Assembly (NCBI GenBank): GCA_016872515.1
Contig: VGZR01000003.1
Location: 1-64,000 of the forward strand
DNA length: 64,000 nt
DNA from: SAR202 cluster bacterium
GTDB taxonomy: Bacteria > Chloroflexota > Dehalococcoidia > Lucifugimonadales > VGZR01
Direction: 5' to 3'
Shown here one piece after another: positions 45,490 to 52,261 of the stretch. Position 1 is the first letter of the stretch. Every line of letters starts with the position of its first letter. Below the pieces are notes generated by a model. The model worked only from the letters and a program-made list of their open reading frames with translations, was not told the origin of the DNA and ran no database searches. The translations under genes and the position numbers were made by a program.

Positions 45490-46239
45490 ATGAGACTCAA
45501 GGATAAAGTGGCGTTCATCAGTGGGTCGGCGCGGGGTATGGGCGCAGTGGAGGCGCGGCTGTTCGCGGAGGAGGGCGCGGCGGTGATGGTGAGCGATGTG
45601 AACGTGGAGAGCGGGAAGAGGGTGGCGGCGGAGATCGCGAAGGCGGGCGGCAAGGCGGACTTCGTGGAGCTCGACGTGACGAACGAGGGGGAGTGGAAGG
45701 CGGCGATAGGGGAGACGGAGAGGCGGTTCGGGAGGGTGGACATCCTGGTGAACAACGCGGGCATCTTCGTAGCGACGGTTATCGAGAAGACGCCGGAGGA
45801 GGAGTGGGACCGGCTCATGGACATCAACGGGAAAGGCGTGTTCCTGGGGACGAAGCACGCCATCCCGGCGATGCGGCGGGCCGGTGGCGGCGCCATCGTG
45901 AACATCTCTTCCGGTGCGGGCATCGTTGGCAACAAGATGGAGGGCGCTTACACGGCGACGAAGGGCGCGGTGCGGCTGTTCACCAAGAGCGCGGCGCTGC
46001 AGGGCGCCAAGGACGGCATACGGGTGAACTCGGTCCATCCCGGCACGATAGACACGGAGATGGTGGCTTCTCTGCTGGCCGATAAGGAGTACCACAGGTG
46101 GGTCAAGACGATGATTCCTTTGGGTAGAGTGGGCAAGGCCGAAGAGGTGGCGAAACTGGTGCTGTTCCTGGCCTCGGATGATGCGTCGTACACCACAGGA
46201 GCGGAGTTCGTCATCGACGGGGGCTACACCGCAGGCTGA
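45490..46239 (+). CDS. Short-chain dehydrogenase/reductase, SDR array member 2
   Basis: 249 residues. SGSARGMG cofactor loop, Ser140/141, Tyr154 and Lys158 (YTATK). It shares long identical stretches with members 3 and 4, such as EKTPEEEWDRLMDINGKGVF (20 residues). AGAGGA precedes the ATG. The cofactor-specificity Asp36 (VSDVNVE) favours NAD(H). Confidence 0.93.
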   Translation: MRLKDKVAFISGSARGMGAVEARLFAEEGAAVMVSDVNVESGKRVAAEIAKAGGKADFVELDVTNEGEWKAAIGETERRFGRVDILVNNAGIFVATVIEKTPEEEWDRLMDINGKGVFLGTKHAIPAMRRAGGGAIVNISSGAGIVGNKMEGAYTATKGAVRLFTKSAALQGAKDGIRVNSVHPGTIDTEMVASLLADKEYHRWVKTMIPLGRVGKAEEVAKLVLFLASDDASYTTGAEFVIDGGYTAG

Positions 46240-46289
46240 ACCCTTCGTGGGTAGTGGCCGGATCCGGCGGTGAATGGAGGGAAGAGACC

Positions 46290-47039
46290 ATGAGACTCAA
46301 AGATAAGGTGGCACTGATCACGGGTGGCGCGCGCGGCATGGGCGCGGCGGAGGCGCGGCTGTTTGCGAAGGAGGGCGCGGCGGTGATGTTGAGCGACGTG
46401 AACGTGGAGGGTGGGAAGAAAGTGGTGGCGGAGATCACGAAGAAGGGTGGCAAGGCGGCGTTTATCAAGCAGGACGTGACACGCGAGGAGGAGTGGAAGG
46501 CGGCCATCGCCGAGACCGAGAGGCGGTTCGGGCGGCTGGATATCTTGATTAACAACGCAGGCATCTTCGTCACGACGGTCATCGAGAAGACGCCGGAGGA
46601 GGAGTGGGACCGGCTGATGGACATCAATGGGAAGGGTGTGTTCTTCGGGGTCAAGCACGCCATACCGGCGATACGGCGGGCTGGCGGCGGGTCCATCGTG
46701 AATATCTCGTCCACCGCGGGCATCGTAGGCAATACCCTGGAGGGGGCGTACACGGCGACGAAGGGTGCGGTGCGTTTGTTCACGAAGGGTGCTGCGCTGC
46801 AAGGGGCCAAGGATGGCATCCGGGTGAACTCGGTCCACCCGGGCGCGATAGACACGGAGATGGTGGCTTTCCTCGTGGATGACAAGAAGCACCGGAAGGA
46901 GCTCGAAGCGCGCATCCCCCTTGGCAGGCTGGGCACCGCCGAGGAGGTGGCGAAGGTCGTACTGTTCCTGGCTTCGGACGATGCAGCGTATGTCACAGGC
47001 GCGGAGTTCGTCGTGGATGGGGGTTACACGGCGCAGTAG
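46290..47039 (+). CDS. Short-chain dehydrogenase/reductase, SDR array member 3
   Basis: 249 residues, closely similar to members 2 and 4. TGGARGMG, NNAGIF, SSTAG and YTATK are present. GGAGGGAAGAG precedes ATG 46290; the frame is open upstream to 46254. It lies 50 bases after member 2 and 50 bases before the amidohydrolase, probably in one transcript. Confidence 0.93.
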   Translation: MRLKDKVALITGGARGMGAAEARLFAKEGAAVMLSDVNVEGGKKVVAEITKKGGKAAFIKQDVTREEEWKAAIAETERRFGRLDILINNAGIFVTTVIEKTPEEEWDRLMDINGKGVFFGVKHAIPAIRRAGGGSIVNISSTAGIVGNTLEGAYTATKGAVRLFTKGAALQGAKDGIRVNSVHPGAIDTEMVAFLVDDKKHRKELEARIPLGRLGTAEEVAKVVLFLASDDAAYVTGAEFVVDGGYTAQ

Positions 47040-47089
47040 GTCCGGCGCAGCCGGGACGCCTCACGAGTTTACCAACGAGAGAAACTACT

Positions 47090-47968
47090 ATGGCAAAGCT
47101 CGCCTTCGTTGATACGCATATCCACTTCTGGGACCTCTCGCACCCAGACCTCTACTACGCCTGGCTACAACCTAATACCGATCATCCTCACCTGGGGAAA
47201 CGCGTCGCAGAACTCAGCAGCAAGGATTACCAGGCGGAAGACTATGTCAGAGAGACGCACAAGTCCAACGTCGTAGCCGCGATACACGTTCAAGCCGCTT
47301 TGGGCATCAAGGACCCGGTGAAGGAGACGCAGTGGCTGCAGGAAGCGGCCGACCGGACCGGGTGCCCCAAGGGCATCGTGGCCTACGCCAATCTAAAGGA
47401 CCCCCGGGTCGAAGAGGTGCTGGAGCGTCACTGCCGATACTCCAACATGCGGGGTATCCGGGACTTTTCAGAGGGTGACTATCTGGTGGACCGGGCCTTT
47501 CACCGCGGCTATGCCCTACTGGAAAAGTTCCGCCTGGCCAGCAGCATGGATGTGAAGTGGGAGAACATGCATAAAGCGCGGGACCTGGCCCGTAAGTTCC
47601 CCCGCACTGCCATGGTGCTCGACCACTGCGGGCTTCCGGTGGCACGCACGAAGGAGTACTTCGAGGCCTGGAAGAAGGGCATCGCCACCTTGGCACAAGC
47701 TGAAAATGTAGTCTGTAAGATCTCGGGGCTGGGGATATATGACCAGAACTGGACCGTTGAGAGCATACGTCCGTGGGTGCTGTCGTGCGTCGAGACCTTC
47801 GGGCCCAAGCGGTGCATCTTTGCTACCAATTGGCCGGTGGACAAGCTGTTCAGCACGTACGACGCGTTGATAGACGCCTATGCACGGATAATCGCTGACT
47901 TCACCCCAGATGAGAAAATGGACATGTTCTCCAGGAACGCGCTGAGTTTGTACCGGATCAAGGCCTAA
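47090..47968 (+). CDS. Amidohydrolase family 2 protein (TIM-barrel metal hydrolase/decarboxylase)
   Basis: 292 residues. The N-terminal FVDTHIHFWDL is the HxH metal motif of amidohydrolase-2 proteins such as L-rhamnono- or fucono-lactonases and 2-pyrone-4,6-dicarboxylate lactonase. VLDHCGLPVA and CKISGLG, and FATNWPVDKLF near the C terminus, carry the remaining ligands (the Asp expected in the last motif is Asn, as in some members). Flanked by two near-identical SDRs, it could hydrolyse a lactone formed by one of them. Confidence 0.88.
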   Translation: MAKLAFVDTHIHFWDLSHPDLYYAWLQPNTDHPHLGKRVAELSSKDYQAEDYVRETHKSNVVAAIHVQAALGIKDPVKETQWLQEAADRTGCPKGIVAYANLKDPRVEEVLERHCRYSNMRGIRDFSEGDYLVDRAFHRGYALLEKFRLASSMDVKWENMHKARDLARKFPRTAMVLDHCGLPVARTKEYFEAWKKGIATLAQAENVVCKISGLGIYDQNWTVESIRPWVLSCVETFGPKRCIFATNWPVDKLFSTYDALIDAYARIIADFTPDEKMDMFSRNALSLYRIKA

Positions 47969-47987
47969 GCGAGGCCAAAGGAGTGCT

Positions 47988-48734
47988 ATGAGACTCAAGG
48001 ACAAGGTGGCATTGATTACCGGCGGCGCGGGCGGCATGGGCGCGGCGGAGGCGCGGCTGTTCGCTCAGGAAGGCGCGGCGGTGATGGTAAGCGACGTGAA
48101 CGTGGAGGGCGGGAAGAAGGTGGTGGCGGAAATCGCGAAGAAGGGTGGCAAGGCGGCCTTTGTGGAGCACGATGTTACGAGCGAGGCGGAGTGGAAGGCG
48201 GCCATCGCCGAGACGGAGAGGCGGTTCGGGCGGCTTGAAATCTTGGTGAACAACGCGGGTATCTTCGTTACGAGCATCATCGAGAAGACACCGGAGGAGG
48301 AGTGGGACCGGCTGATGGACATCAACGGGAAGGGTGTGTTCTTCGGGGTCAAGCACGCCATCCCGGCGATGCGGCGGGTTGGAGGTGGGTCCATCGTGAA
48401 CATCTCGTCCACGGCTGGCATCGTAGGCAGCACCCTGGAGGGGGCGTACACGGCGACCAAGGGCGCGGTGCGGCTGTTCACTAAGAGTGCTGCGTTGCAG
48501 GGGGCGAAGGACGGCATCCGGGTGAACTCGGTCCACCCCGGCGTGATAGACACGGAGATGCTGGCACCATTATTGACCGACAAGTTCCGGAAGTTCCTCC
48601 TGCAGCGCGTCCCTCTTGGCAGGCTGGGCACTGCCGAGGAGGTGGCGAAGGTGGTGCTGTTCCTGGCGTCGGACGATGCGTCGTACGTCACCGGCGCAGA
48701 GTTCGTCGTGGATGGGGGCGACATGGCGAAATAG
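47988..48734 (+). CDS. Short-chain dehydrogenase/reductase, SDR array member 4
   Basis: 248 residues, near-identical to member 3 over the cofactor and catalytic regions (TGGAGGMG, SSTAG, YTATK); the two diverge mainly in the substrate loop around residues 190-205 (member 3 VDDKKHRKELEAR, member 4 LTDKFRKFLLQR). AAAGGAG precedes the ATG. It follows the amidohydrolase by 19 bases. Confidence 0.93.
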   Translation: MRLKDKVALITGGAGGMGAAEARLFAQEGAAVMVSDVNVEGGKKVVAEIAKKGGKAAFVEHDVTSEAEWKAAIAETERRFGRLEILVNNAGIFVTSIIEKTPEEEWDRLMDINGKGVFFGVKHAIPAMRRVGGGSIVNISSTAGIVGSTLEGAYTATKGAVRLFTKSAALQGAKDGIRVNSVHPGVIDTEMLAPLLTDKFRKFLLQRVPLGRLGTAEEVAKVVLFLASDDASYVTGAEFVVDGGDMAK

Positions 48735-48738
48735 GCAG

Positions 48739-48761
48739 GGCCCTTTGACAAGCTCAGGGCC
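48739..48761. repeat. Dispersed intergenic repeat of the 'gacaagctcaggg' type
   Basis: GGCCCT and AGGGCC frame TTTGACAAGCTC, giving the core CCCTTTGACAAGCTCAGGG. This closely resembles the CCCTTCGACAAGCTCAGGG element that recurs between genes in many environmental bacterial genomes. Here it directly follows SDR member 4. Confidence 0.55.
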
Positions 48762-48831
48762 AACGAATCTGAGCACGGGATGTTATGGGGTGAGACTCTG
48801 CAAGTAGCACAGAGCATCACCCCCACCTTAG

Positions 48832-48853
48832 TCCTCCCCCTCAAGGGGGAGGA
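48832..48853. repeat. GC hairpin repeat (REP-like), copy B
   Basis: TCCTCCCCC pairs perfectly with GGGGGAGGA around the loop TCAA, in the 202-base gap between SDR members 4 and 5. The rest of this gap shows no gene. Confidence 0.6.
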
Positions 48854-48936
48854 GAATATGAAAGCAGTGGCCTTCTGAATAGAGCACAGCTTATTGTGCG
48901 GAGTCACTGGATGACCAGGGGTTGCTGGAGGCGTGG

Positions 48937-49686
48937 GTGAGGCTTAAGGATAAGGTGGCGTTGATCACCGGCGGCGCGCGTGGGATGGGCGCGGCGGAGG
49001 CGCGGCTGTTTGCCTGCGAGGGGGCCTGTGTGGTGGTCGCCGACGTGGTCGTGGAGCAGGGCGTCATCGTCGCCGACCATATCCGCGCGAAAGGCGGCAA
49101 GGCGTCCTTCGTGAAGCTGGACGTGACGAGCGAGAAGGACTGGGAGACGGCGGTGGAAGGTGCTGTCCGGAGCTATGGCAAGCTGAATGTGCTGGTGAAC
49201 AACGCGGGCATCTACCGCACCGACCCATTGGAGCGCACGACGCTGCGGGAGTGGGACGAGGTGATGCGGATCAATATCACCGGAGCGTTCCTGGGCATCA
49301 AGCATGTCATCCCCGCGATGCGGCGAGCAAAGGGAGGCGCCATCGTCAACGTGTCGTCCACGACGGCGTTGGTCGCCAGCGGAAGGGGGAGCGCGTACGG
49401 GGCGTCGAAGGCCGCGCTGCTATCGCTGACCCGGCACGCCGCTGTGCAGCATGCTGCGGATGGCATCCGCGTCAATGCGCTGGTGCCAGGACCGGTGGAC
49501 ACGGAGATGATCGCCGCGAACATCCGGACGCCGGAGGGCAGGGCCGCCTCCATCGCACGCATACCCATGGGCCGGATCGCGTCGGCGGACGAACTGGCGT
49601 ATGGGGCGCTGTTCCTGGCCTCCGACGAGTCGTCCTATATGACGGGCGCTCAACTCGTCGTGGACGGAGGGCTGACGGCGCAGTAG
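48937..49686 (+). CDS. Short-chain dehydrogenase/reductase, SDR array member 5
   Basis: 249 residues from GTG 48937, five bases after GGAGG; this start aligns with the other members. TGGARGMG, NNAGIY, VSSTTA and YGASK are present. It is clearly more distant from members 2-4 and is bounded by hairpin repeats on both sides. Confidence 0.92.
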   Translation: MRLKDKVALITGGARGMGAAEARLFACEGACVVVADVVVEQGVIVADHIRAKGGKASFVKLDVTSEKDWETAVEGAVRSYGKLNVLVNNAGIYRTDPLERTTLREWDEVMRINITGAFLGIKHVIPAMRRAKGGAIVNVSSTTALVASGRGSAYGASKAALLSLTRHAAVQHAADGIRVNALVPGPVDTEMIAANIRTPEGRAASIARIPMGRIASADELAYGALFLASDESSYMTGAQLVVDGGLTAQ

Positions 49687-49753: not shown

Positions 49754-51163
49754 CTAGCCGCCGGTGACGGTGACGGTGGCCTTCATGGGGTGGAACTGAC
49801 AGAAGTACTCGAACTGGCCCACCTGGGTGAACTTGAAGCTGTAGGACTGGCCCTCAAGGAGGGCGTCGCTCTCCCATACCCTGCCGACGGCGCTAGAGGT
49901 GTGGGGCGCGGAGTCTCTGTTGATCCAGGTGACCGTGGTGCCGACGGGAATCGTGAGATTCTCCAGGGTAAAGTTCTTGATCTCAGAGACACGGCCCGTG
50001 GCCTGCGAATCGGTGGTGGCTGTCGGCTTCGGCTCAGGCTCGCGGGTTGGCTCAGGAGTGGCGGTCGCCTCGGGGACGACGGTGGGTTCCGTTCGGGGAG
50101 TGGCTTCGGCCACCGGAGTGGGTGTGTTCTCCCGCTCCATGCGGGCCTTCTCATCGGCCGTGACCACCTTCACCACCGCCTGCATCGTTCTCGGGTGGAC
50201 GCGGCAGAAGTAAGGGTACTCGCCCGTTTCGGTGAAGGTGAAGGAGTAGCTGAGACCTGGGTTGAGGCTCAGGCTCTCGAAGAAGCGGGTCGGTTCCACA
50301 GGCGTGCCCGCCGAGGCGGTGTGGGGGATGGGGTCGGCGTTGGTCCAAGTGACCGTGGTGCCGACCTCGACGACGAGGTTGGGCAGTGTTGAACTCCTGA
50401 TCTCGGCGGCCACCTGGGGGCCTGCCATGGCCTTTTCTTTCTCCATCGCCATCGCGGTAGCTTCGGCCACTTTTTCTCGCTCCATCGCCATCTTCTCAGT
50501 TTCGGCGGTGGCTTCCATCGCCCGCTTTTCGGTCTCGGCCGTAGCTTGCGTCACTCGCTTCTCGGCCTCGACGGTAGCTTCCATTGTTCCCTTTTCGGTC
50601 TCCGCCGTGGCTTCCATCGCCATCTTTTCGGCCTCTGCGGTGGCAGCCGCTATGCGTTCGCCGGCCTCTCCGGTGTCCACACCCCCACTCAGGGTGACGG
50701 TCACGGTGCCTTGCATGGAGGTGTGGATCTTGCAGAAGTAGGGGAAGGTGCCTTCCCGGTCGAAGGTGAAGGAGAAGGAGCCGCCCTGGTTGATGACGCC
50801 GCTGTCGAACACGCCGGACTCGGCGCCCGGGGCACCCGCGGTGACGGTGTGCGGGACGTTGTCTTTGTTCGTCCACGTCACGGAAACACCGACGGCAACG
50901 GCCAGGTCCTGGTGCCTGAAGTTGGCGATGTCGGCGGAGATTTGGGCCGCCATCCGCGCCGGCTGCGTGGGGATCTGTGTCGGCTCGACGCGGGCGATGG
51001 GTACAGGGGTCTCAGTGGGTCGGGCCGCCTGCGGCATGGGTGTGTTGAATGAAATGGTGACCGATTCGCCACATGCGGCGGCGACGGCGATGGCCAGTAC
51101 TCCAAAAGGCAGCAGCCATCGGCGGCGGTGCCGTTTTTGGGATTGGTTACTCGGTGGGAGCAA
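49754..51163 (-). CDS. Lipoprotein with three cupredoxin (plastocyanin-like) domains and a hendecad repeat
   Basis: 469 residues. A basic N terminus and a hydrophobic segment end in AVAAAC (Cys31), a lipoprotein signal. Three cupredoxin domains follow at about 72-160, 250-335 and 390-469. Each has the type 1 copper ligands: His105/Cys144/His147/Met150, His281/Cys320/His323/Met327 and His421/Cys455/His458/Met460. Domains 1 and 2 are joined by a charged linker of five 11-residue repeats (175-229); domains 2 and 3 by a Pro/Thr/Glu-rich linker. It probably moves electrons outside the membrane. The start is TTG 51163; no better one is seen. Confidence 0.88.
   Translation of the reverse strand: MLPPSNQSQKRHRRRWLLPFGVLAIAVAAACGESVTISFNTPMPQAARPTETPVPIARVEPTQIPTQPARMAAQISADIANFRHQDLAVAVGVSVTWTNKDNVPHTVTAGAPGAESGVFDSGVINQGGSFSFTFDREGTFPYFCKIHTSMQGTVTVTLSGGVDTGEAGERIAAATAEAEKMAMEATAETEKGTMEATVEAEKRVTQATAETEKRAMEATAETEKMAMEREKVAEATAMAMEKEKAMAGPQVAAEIRSSTLPNLVVEVGTTVTWTNADPIPHTASAGTPVEPTRFFESLSLNPGLSYSFTFTETGEYPYFCRVHPRTMQAVVKVVTADEKARMERENTPTPVAEATPRTEPTVVPEATATPEPTREPEPKPTATTDSQATGRVSEIKNFTLENLTIPVGTTVTWINRDSAPHTSSAVGRVWESDALLEGQSYSFKFTQVGQFEYFCQFHPMKATVTVTGG
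50477..50641 (-). repeat. Five tandem 33-bp units coding an 11-residue repeat
   Basis: The linker between cupredoxin domains 1 and 2 consists of five units of the form T-A-E-T-E-K-x-x-M-E-A (residues 175-229), a 33-base period visible in the DNA. Eleven-residue periods fit a right-handed or long straight helical coiled coil. Confidence 0.8.
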
Positions 51164-51222
51164 TCTGGACCTACCTCAGGCCGCCGAAGGGGGACTAATC
51201 GTGTCCTACCAAAGGGCTATTC

Positions 51223-52197
51223 TTATTGCCGAGGCGTAGGGTTGTCTGAACCCTGGGCGGCCAGTTTTCTTTTTACTTCCGTCCGCTCCCGCACCACGGA
51301 CGCCAGGATGGCGATGCCCAGGATAGATACCACCACCAAAAGGGAGATGTGGACGGGAATCTTCTCGATGTTCGGTATCCCCGAAAGGATCATCTTCGCA
51401 CCGACGAAGAGGAGGATGGCTGAAAGGCCGAGTTTCAGATAGCGGAAATAACCCAGCAAGCCCACCAGCACGAAGAAGATGGCGCGGAGCCCCAAGATGG
51501 CGAAGCCGTTCGAGGTATAGACGATGAATGGGTCCTGGGAGATGGAGAGCACGGCGGGGATGGAGTCGAGCGCAAAGATTAGGTCGGTGGTTTCCACGAC
51601 GAGCAATACAACGAAGAGCACCGTGGCCATCAGCTTGCCGTTCTGACGGACAAAGAGCTTCGCGCCGTGGTACTCCGTCGTCGTCGGGAAGACCTTCTTG
51701 AACAGCCGCACCACCAGGTTTCGCTCTGGGTGCACTCCGCCTTCTTTGGAGGTCGCTAGTTTGTAGCTGGTCAAGACGAGGAAAGCGCCGAATACGAAGA
51801 CCATCCAGTGGAGCGCCTCCAGGAGGGCGACCCCAGCGACAATCATGGCGCCACGCATCACCATGGCGCCGAGGATGCCCCAAAAGAGCACCCGGTGCTG
51901 GTGCTCTGAGGGCACTTTGAAGTAGGTGAAGATGACCGCGAAGACGAAGAGGTTGTCAACGCTGAGCGACTCTTCGATGAGGTATGCGGTCAGGAACTCA
52001 TTGCCCTCTTTAGTGCCGATCCAGATATACACTGCCGCAGCGAAGCCAAGGGCGAGCGCAACCCACAAGAAGGTCCATGCTAGGGCTTCCTTGAAGTGGA
52101 TAGCGTGGGCCCGCCGGTGGAAGACGCCCAGGTCCACCGCCAGCACCGTTACGATGATGACGCCGAAGACGATCCACAGAACTGTACGTGCATCCAC
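51223..52197 (-). CDS. TerC/Alx family membrane protein (probable Mn2+ exporter)
   Basis: 324 residues with about nine helices. DLGVFHRRAHAIHFKEALAW, EESLSVDNLFVFAVIF and VVETTDLIFALDSIPAVLSI (20 residues) are the acidic-motif signatures of TerC/Alx, a family linked to manganese export. The frame is open up to 52230, but those codons lie in the U-tract of a terminator; GTG 52197 has GAGG nine bases upstream and is the start. A yybP-ykoY riboswitch precedes it. Confidence 0.94.
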   Translation of the reverse strand: MDARTVLWIVFGVIIVTVLAVDLGVFHRRAHAIHFKEALAWTFLWVALALGFAAAVYIWIGTKEGNEFLTAYLIEESLSVDNLFVFAVIFTYFKVPSEHQHRVLFWGILGAMVMRGAMIVAGVALLEALHWMVFVFGAFLVLTSYKLATSKEGGVHPERNLVVRLFKKVFPTTTEYHGAKLFVRQNGKLMATVLFVVLLVVETTDLIFALDSIPAVLSISQDPFIVYTSNGFAILGLRAIFFVLVGLLGYFRYLKLGLSAILLFVGAKMILSGIPNIEKIPVHISLLVVVSILGIAILASVVRERTEVKRKLAAQGSDNPTPRQ

Positions 52198-52228
52198 CGC
52201 TTCAAACCTCGCTGGCGGTTCGGGCAAC

Positions 52229-52261
52229 AAAAAAAACCTTCAACCGTTTGTGGTCAAAGGT
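52229..52261 (-). terminator. Riboswitch expression-platform terminator
   Basis: ACCTTTGACC and GGTTGAAGGT form a 10-bp stem (two G-U pairs) with loop ACAAAC, followed by a run of eight T on the minus strand. Its 5' arm includes CCTTTG, which also forms the closing stem of the aptamer, so the two structures exclude each other. Confidence 0.85.

Follow-up and report, generated by a model that had tools for sequence, protein, structure and literature searches.

Among the blue copper electron carriers of the Chloroflexota, the auracyanins of Chloroflexus are membrane-associated, single-domain proteins that are azurin-like rather than amicyanin-like. Amicyanin is a single soluble domain tied to methylamine dehydrogenase, and its copper loop (CxxHxxM) is to our knowledge the shortest of any characterised cupredoxin. 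Halocyanins are lipid-anchored blue copper proteins of archaea, in some of which the domain is present more than once. A search of the open-licence literature for exact phrases, which is weak evidence, returned no paper on tandem cupredoxins. Here we consider a gene in the window (the whole 64,000-nucleotide stretch of DNA that was analysed) whose product carries three cupredoxin domains on one chain.

Three cupredoxin domains on a predicted lipoprotein

The coding sequence (positions 49754-51163, minus strand; from the ORF list and profile matches) specifies 469 amino acids from a TTG start, which is needed because the signal peptide has no Met after residue 1. GAGG lies ten bases upstream of the TTG, and a Shine-Dalgarno-like GAGGTAGG can be read from the sequence ahead of it (51170-51177, minus strand). 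The N-terminus, MLPPSNQSQKRHRRRWLLPFGVLAIAVAAAC31-G, has the form of a basic signal peptide ending in the lipobox VAAAC (51071-51163, minus strand), with AAC or ACG at the same place in aligned relatives, and Cys31 (51071-51073) is the predicted lipidated residue. These features support the proposal, made in an earlier sequence-only reading of this DNA, that the protein is a lipoprotein. The lipobox is followed by a Pro/Thr-rich spacer (residues 32-72; 50948-51070, minus strand) that is predicted to be disordered, with pLDDT < 50 over most of its length.

Pfam Copper-bind (PF00127) matches three stretches of the protein (E 1.9e-23, 83 bits against a cut-off of 21), and each of the three domains also scores above the cut-off when taken alone. 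Domain 1 (residues 73-158; 50690-50947, minus strand) has the ligands H105, C144, H147 and M150 with the loop CKIHTSM; domain 2 (residues 249-335; 50159-50419, minus strand) has H281, C320, H323 and M327 with the loop CRVHPRTM; and domain 3 (residues 389-469; 49757-49999, minus strand) has H421, C455, H458 and M460 with the loop CQFHPM. The domains are 44-51% identical to one another, and are modelled by AlphaFold with eight strands each in domains 1 and 2 and six in domain 3 (pLDDT mostly > 90); the best matches in a structure search are cupredoxin-fold proteins. Together, the Copper-bind matches and the complete ligand set in each domain argue for three domains of the type 1 copper type, as had been proposed. 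Only four Cys occur in the whole protein, lipobox Cys31 and one copper ligand in each domain. Of its eight His, seven lie outside the signal peptide, and six of these are copper ligands. Such economy is expected of functional type 1 sites. A multicopper oxidase or NirK identity is ruled out, as HxH motifs occur nowhere in the protein, leaving no place for a trinuclear or type 2 site.

The Cys-to-Met loops of the three domains all differ in length: CxxHxxM in domain 1, which matches amicyanin, CxxHxxxM in domain 2, and CxxHxM in domain 3, which is one residue shorter than amicyanin's. His-Cys-His-Met ligands had been assigned to all three domains, and letter for letter this holds; axial Met ligation at domain 3 is uncertain, because its His-x-Met spacing is below that of any cupredoxin known to be characterised. 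A survey of about 178 cupredoxin domains from relatives found Cx2Hx2M loops in 101, Cx2Hx3M in 24, Cx2Hx4M in 11 and Cx2Hx1M in two, this last pair consisting of domain 3 and a single-domain cupredoxin lipoprotein in genome G013 (L008:1498-2007, minus strand). The loop of the latter, CIYHGM, is the only other of its length and suggests that the short loop of domain 3 is not an assembly error. Loop length influences the copper site (PMC4059628), and domain 3 may hold no normal type 1 site; if it does bind copper, it would provide a natural test, below amicyanin length, of how loop length sets type 1 geometry.

The hendecad linker and the geometry of the chain

Between domains 1 and 2, residues 167-246 (50426-50665, minus strand) are predicted to form a single alpha helix of ~120 Å that is rich in Ala, Glu and Lys, ~38% charged and free of Pro. 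Within this helix, residues 174-228 (50480-50644, minus strand) comprise five 11-residue (33 bp) units of the form ATAETEKxxME, recovered both from lag-11 identity in the linker (34/69, 7.7 sd above the 11.6 expected from shuffling) and by TRF on the linker DNA (period 33 bp, five copies). The units read ATAEAEKMAME, ATAETEKGTME, ATVEAEKRVTQ, ATAETEKRAME and ATAETEKMAME, and are followed by two irregular ones. Five T-A-E-T-E-K-x-x-M-E-A units had been described beforehand; five are present, with the third (ATVEAEKRVTQ) off consensus. At the DNA level the units are 64-82% identical, and differences within the most similar pairs are mostly at third codon positions (units 1 and 5 share 10/11 residues, with 5/6 DNA differences at third positions). 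Because the drift falls mostly on third positions, the array is old enough to have diverged in DNA with its amino acids largely kept, and not a fresh slippage product.

AlphaFold2, run with a 15-row alignment, predicts a continuous, unbroken helix over the 80 residues from 167 to 246, and the linker folded alone without an alignment again yields a single helix (mean pLDDT 93), so that the helical linker anticipated from the sequence is reproduced by structure prediction both in context and in isolation. An 11/3 helical wheel places Ala/Thr on one face and a Glu/Lys stripe opposite, with a hydrophobicity periodicity of ~3.6, and as modelled the linker reads either as an Ala/Glu/Lys helix that is stable as a monomer or as a hendecad coiled coil of weak character. 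Among 197 related genomes, mostly from the same order as the window genome, no cupredoxin relative has a helical repeat of this kind. The single match to the linker elsewhere is weak and belongs to an unrelated coiled-coil protein in genome G069 (L036:1375-1797, minus strand), a 141-aa frame in which a series of 11-residue DRTAQAEQRxx units precedes a hydrophobic C-terminal segment; it is a membrane protein of hendecad type with no relation to cupredoxins.

Linker 2 (residues 336-388; 50000-50158, minus strand) is of a different character, with a short helix at 336-345 followed by Pro/Thr/Glu-rich disorder; the Pro-rich linker previously noted ahead of domain 3 corresponds to residues 346-388. 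In the AlphaFold2 model the confident domain blocks (mostly > 90 pLDDT) are accompanied by a pTM of 0.38, and because this value is low the domains are predicted to have no fixed mutual arrangement. A structure search with the whole chain placed multidomain copper oxidases at the top (TM 0.18, rmsd 30 Å), a result that is meaningless beyond the single-domain fold.

Neighbouring genes and readings of function

A co-directional gene for a TerC/Alx-family membrane protein (51223-52230, minus strand; TIGR03718, 395 bits) lies 59 bp upstream. Bacillus subtilis TerC proteins metalate Mn exoenzymes (PMC10550928). A conserved TerC-cupredoxin pairing was considered and rejected: a cupredoxin ORF accompanies TerC, within ~1.5 kb on each side, at 0/31 other TerC-bearing loci, and the gene is a neighbour, not a conserved partner. 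A search for an upstream Mn riboswitch gave no Rfam match, only a sub-threshold nhaA-I hit (E 0.62). Beyond TerC are PxpABC-like genes, and on the opposite side short-chain dehydrogenase genes, neither of which points to a partner; a pxpC-like gene was not found in the congeneric genome G001 when synteny was compared. The short-chain dehydrogenase stretch (45490-49686) holds four similar genes (45490, 46254, 47988 and 48922) and is interrupted by an amidohydrolase gene (47090-47968). No electron-transport gene adjoins the lipoprotein gene among these neighbours. Elsewhere the genome has a heme-copper oxidase subunit I, along with five matches to cytochrome c and two regions resembling multicopper oxidases, and the heme-copper oxidase and cytochrome c proteins are possible electron partners.

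We consider it somewhat probable (roughly 0.55) that the protein tethers several independent copper electron carriers to the membrane and that its helix extends their reach. Several observations lead to this reading: three Copper-bind domains with an economical use of Cys and His, confidently modelled without a fixed arrangement; a linker predicted to be helical in context and alone; the recurrence, across several genera of the order, of a lipobox followed by two to four cupredoxins with flexible linkers; and the oxidase and cytochrome c candidates encoded in the genome. The protein would be a surface or envelope lipoprotein, anchored at Cys31, whose tandem cupredoxins follow one another like "beads on a string" and in which each amicyanin/plastocyanin-like domain would bind one copper, act as a separate one-electron carrier and dock singly with respiratory partners. 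Domain 1 would sit near the membrane on its Pro-rich leash, and the 80-residue hendecad helix would hold domain 2 ~12 nm beyond it, along with domain 3, which has a flexible leash of its own. Electron transfer would rely on docking and collision, among the domains or with oxidases and cytochromes; the chain itself would not conduct. What we infer here from sequence and models is the copper loading, the transfer of electrons, the partners and the orientation. In a more specific version, which we regard as improbable, the helix serves as a ruler of 12 nm, or as a coiled-coil stalk, so that two of the copper carriers lie past the cell wall or S-layer and the third remains at the membrane, with the three loop lengths tuning their potentials and the natural CxxHxM loop being shorter than any known to be characterised.

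The sequence-only reading had suggested an extracellular electron wire, in which electrons would hop from domain 1 to domain 2 to domain 3 along the molecule, and three redox domains on one membrane-anchored chain would suit such a device. Biological electron tunnelling, however, has a limit of ~14 Å, and the helix between domains 1 and 2 (80 residues at 1.5 Å) would hold them apart by roughly ten times that range; a gap so far beyond tunnelling would insulate domain 1 from domain 2, and if rigid, as modelled, would exclude direct tunnelling between them along the chain. Conduction between these two domains would require other molecules or a bent chain, and within a single molecule only domains 2 and 3, joined by the flexible leash, could come into contact, so we judge the wire very improbable. 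The helix would instead give the protein a built-in distance control, isolating one site electrically from the other two. Alternatively, the main role of the helix might be to oligomerise the protein, as a hendecad coiled coil bundling several chains and so bringing six or more copper sites together. This idea draws on the exact 11-residue periodicity, the ~3.6 hydrophobicity periodicity with its Ala/Thr face, and the fact that the only other match to the linker is a remote protein whose repeats are hendecad-like and whose C-terminus has a membrane segment; but a putative core made up of Ala and Thr, lacking Leu and including one Ile and few Val, would be weak for a coiled coil, and a monomeric Ala/Glu/Lys helix accounts equally well for the sequence, making oligomerisation as the main role rather unlikely.

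Copper capture, storage or tolerance, with the domains buffering or delivering copper rather than carrying electrons, is an unlikely reading; in its favour, several domains per chain would raise the copper load, the linker has nine Met, and the neighbouring TerC/Alx family is tied to metal handling (PMC10550928). Against it, TerC is known for Mn and not for Cu and lacks a cupredoxin beside it at the other loci described above, the linker Met belong to the repeat and not to separate copper motifs, and complete type 1 ligand sets without His-rich metal-binding runs would suit electron transfer better.

Tandem relatives and named copper families compared

With the window protein as query, 78 of the 197 genomes gave matches, mostly to cupredoxin domains and in some cases weakly to Pro-rich parts. 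Multi-domain proteins were counted with a draft HMM on six-frame ORFs, and seven loci (L003, L135, L125, L047, L122, L108 and L063) at which split or divergent domains were counted are not relied on. Three-domain proteins occur in G090 (L004, 472 aa, with Pro/Ala linkers) and in G109 (L106, whose C-terminal region weakly resembles CBM96), and two-domain proteins in G036, G073, G233 and G035. In G078, four cupredoxin domains extend across a reading-frame break (L017:1126-2961, minus strand), with a stop codon inside the third, which may reflect a true pseudogene or a sequencing error. The lipoprotein of G035 (L104:2100-4283, plus strand) has its two cupredoxin domains on either side of an NMT1-like substrate-binding domain, and these two are each other's closest relatives in the domain tree. 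A 1219-aa lipoprotein from the same class (L117:1654-5310, minus strand, in G219) has ten consecutive cupredoxin domains (Copper-bind in 10 stretches, E 2.4e-93), each of which has a Cx2Hx2M loop, and we find it more striking than the window protein itself. In G119 a cupredoxin domain is fused to a DM13 (electron transfer) domain (L007:1141-2262, minus strand), a module known mostly from eukaryotes. The remark that no described protein has this exact plan is thus overtaken as a claim of novelty, since an architecture search uncovers lipoproteins with two, three, four and ten cupredoxins across the order and class, seemingly a common yet undescribed class in this lineage.

In the domain tree, the first and last domains of the proteins from G090 and G078, two genomes of one family, pair one-to-one, so that this protein is inherited as a unit and represents a maintained type. 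The tree has too few columns for most forks, those of domains 2 and 3 included; since these two are unplaced, domain 1 clusters weakly with family f28 lipoproteins that have a single domain, and the three domains are 44-51% identical to each other, the window chain was probably assembled independently. In the only congener compared, G001 (83% complete), an ortholog is absent, and a genome-wide scan with the full protein returned only two remote cupredoxin loci, in Bdellovibrionales and Nitrososphaeraceae MAGs.

The tandem relatives at L004, L106, L017 and L117 share with the window protein two to ten Copper-bind domains separated by low-complexity linkers, and often the loop YFCxxHPxM. Their signal and lipobox starts resemble that of the window protein clearly in L106 and L117 and by eye in L004, with L017 reading AYG. 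A lipobox with at least two Copper-bind domains per chain is thus found in the window protein, whereas the relatives' Pro/Thr/Ala-rich flexible linkers (charged fraction 0-0.1) have an equivalent only in linker 2, linker 1 being a Pro-free, 38%-charged helical repeat. We treat this mismatch as a variant trait that would lower, without excluding, membership among the tandem cupredoxin lipoproteins. The ligand loops of the window protein are also unequal, unlike those of the relatives, and its unusual parts appear to be the hendecad linker and the Cys-x2-His-x1-Met loop of domain 3.

Turning to named copper families, the lipid anchor is held in common with halocyanins, but these are archaeal and their profile (TIGR03102) scores 41 bits, far under its cut-off of 93.8. 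Auracyanins, as described in the literature from the phylum to which the window probably belongs, likewise associate with membranes and differ in their single, azurin-like domain. Among cupredoxin-fused NirK and multicopper oxidase structures (PDB 9cck, 6hbe), the C-terminal cupredoxin of 9cck is the best PDB sequence match. No methylamine dehydrogenase link was found among the flanking genes identified by Pfam. Of the named single-domain families, amicyanin (TIGR02657; PDB 1aac) comes closest in both the profile and the PDB searches: its profile reaches 120.3 bits against a cut-off of 110.2, a score summed over three matched stretches, and it is ~28-34% identical to the window domains, sharing its loop length with domain 1, while the loop of domain 2 is longer and that of domain 3 shorter.
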